Positions 22,141 to 24,031 of a stretch of DNA of 64,000 nt are shown in pieces. The notes below the pieces were generated by a model. It was not told where the DNA came from and did no database searches. It saw only the letters and a list, made by a program, of their open reading frames with translations. Made by a program: the position numbers and the translations under genes. The stretch is from Cyanobacteriota bacterium (GTDB taxonomy: Bacteria > Acidobacteriota > Vicinamibacteria > Vicinamibacterales > UBA2999): assembly GCA_019752015.1 (NCBI GenBank), contig JAIEMQ010000027.1, positions 62,001 through 126,000 on the forward strand, in the 5' to 3' direction. Positions within the stretch are counted from its first letter, which is position 1. Every line of letters starts with the position of its first letter.

Positions 22141-22653
22141 CTACATCGTCGGGCTGCAGGTTGACGACGTCATTTTGATGTCGTCGACCTTCAGCTTCAG
22201 CAGCGTGATTGGAATGTCGCTCTTGTTCGGCACGCTGCCGGGCTGCACGTTCGCATTCGGCGCCGACGTCTTGACGTCCCGGCCGGGACCTTCGATCTCG
22301 ACATTGAAGCCGTTGCCGCTCTCGCCGGCTTTCCACTCAATCTCCGACTTCTCAACGTCAGTGATCTTGCCGGTGATCTGAATGGTGTGGCCCTGGTGGC
22401 CCTTCATCTTGTCGGTCTTCTCGATCCAGTAGTAGCGCTTGCCGAACTTGCCCATGTCGCTGTTGGCGATCGGCCATTCGCGGACGTTGGTCAGGACGAA
22501 CGTATCCTTTTTCTCCGCGGCCACGACGCAGCCCTGCAGCGTGACAGTTGAGCCTTTGTCATATTTCTTCCCGTCCGCCTGGGCTTGGGCTGAAACGGCC
22601 GAGATGCCGGCGGTGAATCCGAGCGCGACAGCAAGTGCGATCACAGTCTTCAT
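22141..22653 (-). CDS. secreted protein of unknown function (OB-fold-like)
   Basis: 170 residues from ATG 22653, with GGGAGA a few bases upstream and a signal peptide (MKTVIALAVALGFTAGI to SAQA). The mature part begins GSTVTLQGCVVAAEKKDTFVLTNV and later HTIQITGKITD, a pattern of beta strands like small OB-fold periplasmic proteins found in Acidobacteriota. One Cys follows LQG; a second lies in the C-terminal SSTCSPTM. No catalytic motif is seen. Its own promoter would lie back to back with the pheA leader. Confidence 0.75.
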   Translation of the reverse strand: MKTVIALAVALGFTAGISAVSAQAQADGKKYDKGSTVTLQGCVVAAEKKDTFVLTNVREWPIANSDMGKFGKRYYWIEKTDKMKGHQGHTIQITGKITDVEKSEIEWKAGESGNGFNVEIEGPGRDVKTSAPNANVQPGSVPNKSDIPITLLKLKVDDIKMTSSTCSPTM

Positions 22654-22704
22654 AGAAGTCTCCCGGGCAGAAGCGTGCATAACGGCTGCCAGAGCCACCT
22701 CGTG

Positions 22705-22710
22705 TATACT
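22705..22710 (+). promoter_or_regulatory. -10 box of the pheA leader transcript
   Basis: TATACT. With the first T at -12, +1 falls on 22717, the G of the leader peptide GTG. No convincing -35 is seen around 22682. Confidence 0.55.
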
Positions 22711-22716
22711 CGGCGC

Positions 22717-22794
22717 GTGAGTTTCGCGGCCCGGTTCTTTAATTCGTTTACCAATAGCGGCGGCTTTAATAGCCGTCCAGGGAGCCGCGTCTGA
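22717..22794 (+). CDS. pheL: Phe-rich leader peptide of the pheA attenuator
   Basis: Twenty-five codons from GTG 22717 to TGA 22792-22794. The start of the peptide is MSFAARFFNSF and a further Phe follows in GGFN, giving Phe at positions 3, 7, 8, 11 and 17. Three of the five codons are TTT, although the genome prefers C-ending codons. It lies between a -10 box and the terminator that precedes pheA. This is the layout of amino-acid-biosynthesis leader peptides: scarcity of charged tRNA-Phe would stall the ribosome here. No Shine-Dalgarno is present and +1 falls on the start codon, so it should be translated as a leaderless message. Confidence 0.75.
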   Translation: MSFAARFFNSFTNSGGFNSRPGSRV

Positions 22795-22878
22795 AGTTTC
22801 AAGTGTAAAGTTTCAAGTTTCAAGTTAACGACTTCACAGACCGCCGCTTCCGAACAGAGGGAGCGGCGGTTTTGCTTT
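22756..22878 (+). terminator. pheA attenuator: antiterminator and terminator
   Basis: The terminator stem is CCGCCGCTTCC (22841-22851) with GGGAGCGGCGG (22859-22869), an 11-bp stem with one G-U pair and a 7-base loop, then TTTTGCTTT. AGCGGCGG (22756-22763), inside the leader coding region, is exactly complementary to CCGCCGCT (22841-22848) and would form the antiterminator. GCGGCT (22760-22765) can instead pair with AGCCGC (22783-22788), sequestering it. A ribosome stalled at Phe7-Phe8 would leave 22756 onward free; completing translation would favour termination. Confidence 0.75.
22797..22829. repeat. 7-bp array inside the pheA leader
   Basis: Units AAGTTTC, AAGTGTA, AAGTTTC, AAGTTTC and AAGTTAA, placed exactly between the leader-peptide stop and the terminator, where a length-flexible spacer is needed. 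Confidence 0.6.
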
Positions 22879-22888
22879 AGGGGCATGT

Positions 22889-24031
22889 ATGACCAGCCAG
22901 GATTTGGCGGCACTACGGAAGAGTCTCGACGACATTGATTCGGTGCTGGTGTCGGCGCTTGGGGAACGGGCGCGCCTGGCGCGGCAGATCGCGAAGGTGA
23001 AGGCCGATGGCGACGGGCCGGTGCGCGACGCCGATCGCGAGACCGCGCTGCTGCAACACCGTTCCGAGGTGGGCGAGCGGCTCGGCCTCGATCCGGCGTT
23101 CGTGCGCCGCATCTTCCGCGAGATCCTGGACGACTCGGTAAGGCGGCAGCACGATGCGCTGCATACGACAGCCGCGGAGGCCGCGCAGGAGATCACCGTC
23201 GCCTTTCAAGGCACCGAGGGCGCCTACGGACATCAGGCGGCGCTGCAACACTTCGCCGTCGCACAGCGTCCGGTTGCCTTCAAGGCCTACGGCAGCTTCA
23301 AGGAGATGCTCGAGGCGGTGATCGAAGGCCACGCCGATCGCGCGATGCTGCCGATTGAAAACACCACGGCAGGATCCGTGTACGAATCGTACGATCTGCT
23401 GCTGCGATTCAACCTCGCGCTCGTCGGCGAAGAGATCGTGGACGTCAGGCATTGCCTGCTTGGCGTCGAGCCGGTGCCGATCGAATCGCTGCGCCGCATC
23501 CACTCGCATTCGCAGGCGTTGTCGCAGTGCAGTGAGTTTCTGTCGACGTTGCGCGAGTGCGAAGGCGTGAGCGCCGCCAATACGGCGCTGGCCGCGAAGC
23601 ACGTCCGCGACCTGAAGAATCCAACCGAAGCCGCCATCGCCAGCGAGGAGGCCGGCGCGCACTTCGGATTGCACGTGTTGAAGCGGGACATCGCCAACCA
23701 GGCGGTCAACTACACGCGTTTCGTCGTCGTGTCCGCCACGCCGGCGGATTGCGATCCGCGAATCGCCGCCAAGGTCTCAATGGTGTTATCGACGCGTCAC
23801 GAGCACGGCGCGCTGGTGCGGTGCCTGAACGTGATCGCCGACGAGGGACTGAACGTCACCAAGCTCGAATCGCGGCCGCGGCCGGGCACGCCGTGGGAGT
23901 ACGTGTTCTACATCGACGTCGAAGGGCACATCGCCTCGCCCCGGATGCAGGCGGCGCTGGCGGGCCTGGCCGAGCGGACAGTGTTCGTGAAGGTGCTGGG
24001 GTGTTACCCGGCGAGGGAACTACCCCGTTAG
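22889..24031 (+). CDS. pheA: chorismate mutase / prephenate dehydratase (P-protein)
   Basis: 380 residues from ATG 22889. Catalyses the first two steps from chorismate to phenylpyruvate. Residues 1-90 are an AroQ-type chorismate mutase ([20 protein letters not shown], then [10 protein letters not shown]). Residues about 100-285 are prephenate dehydratase ([27 protein letters not shown]) with the catalytic Thr in NYTRFVVV. Residues about 290-375 are an ACT domain with LESRPRPG, the Phe-binding motif for feedback inhibition. An attenuator upstream adds transcriptional control, so both enzyme activity and expression should respond to Phe. Confidence 0.96.

Follow-up and report, generated by a model that had tools for sequence, protein, structure and literature searches.

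Organisation of the region upstream of pheA

In the window (the whole stretch of 64,000 nucleotides of DNA analysed here), pheA is preceded by a short leader region, the features of which are collected in Table 1. The identity of pheA, already proposed in an earlier note on this DNA, was borne out by Pfam, with matches to CM_2 (2.6e-21), PDT (2.2e-52) and ACT (2e-05, slightly below the Pfam cut-off). The other elements described there, a TATACT box, a frame of 25 codons of which five are for Phe, and a terminator, are likewise all present in the sequence. The leader frame opens with the GTG at 22717, runs for 24 more codons and ends with the TGA at 22792-22794. Its Phe codons are codons 3, 7, 8, 11 and 17 (5 of 25), three of them TTT and two TTC. 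Between this frame and pheA, the first structural gene, lies an intrinsic terminator with a stem at about 22839-22851/22859-22871 and a U-tract that reaches 22878; the U-tract is as previously described, but the stem comprises 13 pairs and not 11. Upstream, a divergent gene on the minus strand (22141-22698), with a signal-peptide-like start, lies between sucD and the leader. This gene is absent in several relatives, where the leader is found directly behind sucD.

Table 1 Features of the pheA leader region (window coordinates)
Feature	Position	Strand	Basis
-10-like box TATACT	22705..22710	+	sequence; leader start codon 6 nt downstream
Leader peptide frame VSFAARFFNSFTNSGGFNSRPGSRV + TGA	22717..22794	+	conserved Phe-containing frame, 13 relatives
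Strand 1, weakly supported candidate, CGCGGC	22725..22730	+	partner 22784-22789 in untranslated full RNA
Antiterminator strand of the earlier note, AGCGGCGG	22756..22763	+	complement of 22841-22848; predicted unformed
Strand 2, 5' side of the putative antiterminator, across the leader stop codon	22780..22798	+	duplex energy, swaps, covariation
AAGTTTC heptamer repeat, separating strand 2 from strand 3	22795..22827	+	sequence
Strand 3, 3' side of the putative antiterminator; its 3' end doubles as terminator 5' arm	22830..22851	+	
Intrinsic terminator, 13-bp stem, 7-nt loop, U-tract TTTTGCTTT	22838..22878	+	-26.4 kcal/mol
pheA, fused chorismate mutase/prephenate dehydratase (ACT), putative controlled gene	22889..24031	+	Pfam

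A Phe-containing leader frame is conserved in three genera

Orthologues of the locus were sought among 162 genomes belonging to the order and in a public genome collection. A Phe-containing frame followed by a terminator was found at the orthologous site in 13 relatives from three genera, 12 of the frames having at least 3 Phe and one having 2; conservation of the Phe codons among related genomes, which the earlier note had named as a check, is therefore observed. In the window's own genus, the leader is present in G001, G004, G007 and G008. It is also found in all five genomes of genus g31 and, within genus g10, in G118, G119 and G121 as well as in G120, where the version has two Phe codons. 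Left out of these counts were a frame before pheA in G030 (MTFRPILSSFVTVVVTVTGITAMPVQQLRMF, 3 Phe), which shows good pairing of strands 2 and 3 and is ambiguous in its amino-acid specificity, and a doubtful frame in G025 with 2 Phe.

Some genomes lack the leader or parts of it. The same-genus genome G002 has neither leader nor terminator before pheA, and in G005, also of this genus, sucD is followed directly by pheA. In G003 (loci L046/L008), a deletion leaves VNV* (with * for the stop) and the terminator, the Phe codons being lost, which makes it a natural null allele. An apparently decayed copy, GCFTAARGQC, is found without a terminator in G112. Where the leader is intact, the peptides share a C-terminal motif (for example FTAARGGV*, FTAGREAV* or FTGRVTV*) and the positions of the Phe codons shift between relatives, as expected if selection acts on the Phe content and on pairing within the RNA. 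The terminator stem is kept in all 14 aligned sequences; the consensus fold of the alignment is mainly this terminator because the alternative pairings are mutually exclusive.

Phe makes up 55 of the 334 leader residues (16.5%) in the 14 species, compared to about 3% in the pheA genes; its share in six genes of the window is 4.0%. The codons used also differ. TTT accounts for 31 of the 55 leader Phe codons and for 19 of 155 in pheA, which puts TTT at a 9-fold excess over TTC; the p-value of 4e-10 is optimistic given that the species are related.

Promoter spacing suggests a leader start codon at or next to +1

All five members of the window's genus that bear the leader, and G003 as well, have a hexamer TATACT, TATAAT or TATGAT 6-7 nt ahead of the leader start codon. 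With the -10 box ending so close upstream, the start codon would fall at or next to +1, and the leader frame thus seems to be leaderless in this genus. A leader frame that begins at the predicted +1, as had been suggested for the window, is in keeping with this spacing. Another leader of the same genome, in front of asd, likewise has a TATACT, here 7 nt from its GTG start. The leader frame of genera g31 and g10 lies almost directly behind sucD, and in most of these genomes promoter-like sequence within the end of sucD would give rise to a short untranslated region.

The supported antiterminator pairing spans the leader stop codon

The pairing that comparative evidence supports as the antiterminator joins strand 2, in which the leader frame ends and which runs over its stop codon, to strand 3 on the 5' side of the terminator. 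In the window, this duplex is worth -21.6 kcal/mol, compared to -15.7 kcal/mol for the 8-bp complementarity between 22756-22763 and 22841-22848 to which the earlier note had given the antiterminator role. Taken alone, the window's duplex is only modestly better than shuffled sequences (z -1.6 to -2.2). The 2:3 duplex is long in every species that bears the leader; most values lie at about -25 to -35 kcal/mol, and that of G001 is -22.9 kcal/mol. When strands 2 and 3 were swapped between species, own pairs averaged -28.4 kcal/mol, same-genus pairs -26.1 kcal/mol and other-genus pairs -22.3 kcal/mol, and none of 20000 permutations was as good as the native set. In the alignment, the nine antiterminator pairs are 87% paired, with a covariation of 0.149 versus 0.084 for shuffled alignments (0 of 500 as high). 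This covariation is also clearly above every slid version of the pairing, the slid controls retaining the relatedness of the sequences and the shuffles not. The pairing includes the 5' arm of the terminator, is mutually exclusive with it, and shows compensating changes among relatives. A 6-bp hairpin, 22760-22765/22783-22788, which had been put forward as a competitor, does exist (-10.0 kcal/mol) and correctly singles out the strand at which the leader frame ends.

Predicted folding depends on ribosome position before strand 4 is made

When the whole leader was folded at equilibrium, the terminator won at nearly all ribosome positions, reaching 0.97-0.99 in the window whatever the position. 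Equilibrium folding of the whole leader is thus blind to the ribosome, and the switch would have to be kinetic, decided during RNA synthesis, like that of the classical trp and phe attenuators. We therefore modelled only the state in which strand 3 is complete and strand 4 is not yet made, and computed equilibrium pairing probabilities for it. With the ribosome A site at Phe 7, 8, 11 or 17, the predicted probability of 2:3 pairing in the window is about 0.90; with the ribosome at the stop codon it is 0.00, since strand 2 lies under the ribosome in that position. For strand 3 to be held by upstream sequence, predicted probabilities are mostly 0.55-0.84 with the ribosome at upstream Phe codons, are often lower at the last Phe codon, and are 0.12-0.58 at the stop. 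Most relatives follow a trend with ribosome position similar to that of the window.

Strand 1 could pair with strand 2 (22725-22730/22784-22789), with a probability of 0.55 in the full RNA without a ribosome. This hairpin is clear in the folds of several relatives and weak in the window, where 2:3 pairing in the untranslated RNA has a probability of 0.76 before strand 4 is made. Given such a weak competitor, the device might read through when it is not translated.

Alternative readings of the leader

The attenuator was first drawn with a ribosome at Phe7-Phe8 that frees 22756-22763 for pairing with 22841-22848. The complementarity of these segments is exact over 8 bp, and the GGCGGC before the last Phe codon is kept in most members of the genus. 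Yet the computed probability of the pairing is about 0.00 in every state, including those with the ribosome at any Phe codon, where its footprint was to have exposed the strand, and it is outcompeted by the stop-codon pairing. Compensating changes, also proposed at the time as a check, are found for the stop-codon pairing, which recurs in all three genera, whereas the 22756-22763 strand is kept within part of the window's genus only and is not kept in g31 or g10. With an ensemble probability of about zero and no conservation, this antiterminator was rejected, and we consider the switch in that form highly unlikely.

A plain terminator that happens to follow a Phe-rich frame, with no regulation at all, would fit G003, where the terminator stands without Phe codons, and G005, where sucD and pheA adjoin, both of which indicate that pheA can live without the switch. 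But the nearest upstream gene in the window is on the opposite strand, so that there is no obvious upstream unit to terminate, and a plain terminator would not be expected to come with Phe frames that are conserved, a preference for TTT and covariation of strands 2 and 3, which makes such an accident more improbable still. Least probable of all is that another sensor (a T-box, a riboswitch or an RNA-binding protein) acts on the same terminator, the frame being secondary. T-boxes are used on aromatic genes in other phyla, but an Rfam scan of the whole window at gathering score matched no family, Phe_leader and T-box included, and the leader RNA is short (about 160 nt), its conserved parts being the Phe codons, the stop-codon region and the terminator.

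A model for Phe-dependent attenuation

The region in front of pheA is thus very probably a ribosome-mediated transcription attenuator of the classical type that responds to Phe. This core claim, which the earlier note had made for a Phe leader peptide before pheA with its frame starting at the predicted +1, has strong support at the level of sequence, drawn from conservation, from the bias in codon use, from covariation and from the spacing of the promoter. In the model that we propose, transcription would start at or next to the leader GTG and the ribosome would load straight onto the RNA at its 5' end. When Phe-tRNA is ample, the translating ribosome would reach the stop codon and cover strand 2; strand 3 would then be free, the terminator would form with strand 4, and RNA polymerase would stop near 22878. 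During a shortage of Phe-tRNA, it would stall instead at Phe 7/8, 11 or 17 (the ribosome, that is) and leave strand 2 bare, in which case strand 2 would pair with strand 3, the terminator would not form and pheA would be transcribed. Commitment to either fold would be kinetic.

Leaders for other amino acids in the same genome and phylum

A covariance model was built from the 14 pheA leaders and searched against the phylum. It recovered the pheA leaders together with leaders for other amino acids. Outside family f1, its weak matches were mostly bare terminators or chance, and a match was kept only where a frame rich in an amino acid stood before a gene to suit. Gene names in other families were read from the translated sequence, except for loci found via their Pfam family.

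In the window's genome (G000), a Trp/Tyr leader, MRSRAVNNAAVSTGHFGRKGSGVGSWWWYWCPTGEAHRSV*, with a WWWYW run, and a terminator lie upstream of 23625 on contig C5 (L181), followed by a fused aroD-aroE and trpE. On contig C11, a His leader, MSFVHQAHHCHHHRSPNGPARVCA*, and a terminator are found on the minus strand before 126102, in front of hisI (L183), and on contig C31, before 3400, a Thr/Met/Lys leader, VTMTRKRMPKRAKCGAEGIRL*, and a terminator precede asd (L184). Thr-rich frames related to the latter lie before asd in G050 and G051 (L166, L167), and His leaders were also found in G105 and G070 (family f5). The fused aroD-aroE of other genera in the family, and of a single family f3 genome, is preceded by a frame like MSMSRRFSSFVSPNYASYWWWYRTATEGAAGV*. 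Most of these aromatic leaders (L146-L148, L150-L156, L158 and L165, from other genera of the family and from G038) hold Phe, Tyr and two to four Trp codons. It is possible that the aroDE leader is a single sensor for the common shikimate pathway, and all-aromatic leaders on shared shikimate genes would amount to one sensor reading three amino acids.

More distant families carry leaders as well. Phe leaders precede pheA in family f38 (for example MSTSRRFFFFSFRTSGARLSGV*; loci L206, L207, L208 and L211) and in family f39 (MQHNRSAFRFFSRMSAACLIV*; L223), and these are independent. Some f38 and f39 genomes are nearly closed and may be those of cultured strains. An all-aromatic leader, MRTFSFTFSGYWYWWSLIGKARPAALACVLDD*, lies before a DAHP synthase in family f45. 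Among the aromatic leaders of other acidobacterial families, L191 (G251, MRTFSFTFSGYWYWW...) stands before DAHP synthase and L190 (G489, MKFSGAIYNAFNLNTFYWWQF...) before trpE. Trp-containing leaders were found before trpE in other acidobacterial families.

Across 15 leaders, which are partly related and 5 of which are not individually significant, the stop-codon pairing is better than in shuffled sequences, with a combined z of -9.5. Among 60 pheA/trpE loci across the phylum, an aromatic-rich short frame and a terminator lie upstream in 11, versus 3 of 180 control stretches (Fisher 2e-5). From these comparisons, the Phe device appears widespread in Acidobacteriota. More broadly, we think it probable, with less confidence than for the pheA switch itself, that leader-peptide attenuation is general and old in the phylum, with Phe leaders on pheA, all-aromatic leaders (Phe, Tyr and Trp together) on the common shikimate genes aroDE and aroF, Trp/Tyr leaders on trpE, His leaders on hisI and Thr/Met/Lys leaders on asd, some of them leaderless.

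Relation to known attenuators

Leader-peptide attenuation is classically exemplified by pheL and trpL. In the enterobacterial pheL-pheA system, a Phe-rich leader peptide, alternating hairpins and an intrinsic terminator control a fused chorismate mutase/prephenate dehydratase. The leader described here, in which alternating hairpins are predicted, shares all of these elements, the target gene included, with pheL-pheA (Rfam Phe_leader). It differs in that there is no Rfam match and the leader peptide sequence is unrelated, in that strand 2 spans the stop codon and the frame is probably leaderless, and in that the Phe codons in the window's genus are spaced and not contiguous. In Sinorhizobium meliloti trpL and the mycobacterial Cys leaders, a frame at the 5' end of the RNA regulates a biosynthetic operon through ribosome position; the probably leaderless frame, the kind of operon and the predicted use of ribosome position are alike here, whereas the amino acid, the gene and the phylum differ. 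The mycobacterial cases lack an intrinsic terminator, unlike the pheA leader.

Outside Proteobacteria, leader peptide, antiterminator and terminator have been predicted comparatively for actinobacterial trp attenuators; in the part of that report consulted, the regulatory codons are Trp, where here they are Phe, and no phenylalanine attenuator is reported in Actinobacteria (PMC1262725). The uORFC-13-1 motif before aroF, for which attenuation of a shikimate-pathway gene was proposed, likewise consists of an upstream frame and a terminator, a likeness of descriptions only, and Acidobacteriota are not named in that work (PMC8632094). A survey of predicted attenuators, at a time when leader peptides were known only from Proteobacteria and Actinobacteria, added Firmicutes and listed almost none in Acidobacteria with an associated function (PMC2965389). 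The earlier note knew of no case in Acidobacteriota, and we found none in the literature on attenuation, leader peptides and Acidobacteria, in which comparative studies are incompletely covered; ribosome-mediated attenuation is apparently previously unreported in this phylum, and we claim no priority.

A later comparative study places the possible origin of amino-acid attenuators in gammaproteobacteria, with transfers being few (PMC3766115); general acidobacterial attenuation, if true, would contradict such an origin with little spread. The leaders would provide a specific mechanism by which the synthesis of aromatic amino acids is controlled in an abundant soil phylum whose regulation has been little studied, and a leaderless start would couple ribosome loading to the first transcribed nucleotide. 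The interest lies in the phylum, in the apparent leaderless start and in a family of putative switches on several amino-acid operons.

Finally, similar copies of the heptamer AAGTTTC occur at other sites in the same genome, and in G001 a different heptamer repeat, AGAAGGC, occupies the equivalent position. Heptamer tandem repeats are also present before hisI and aroDE in the window's genome, within or adjoining the leaders, and the copies vary among genomes.
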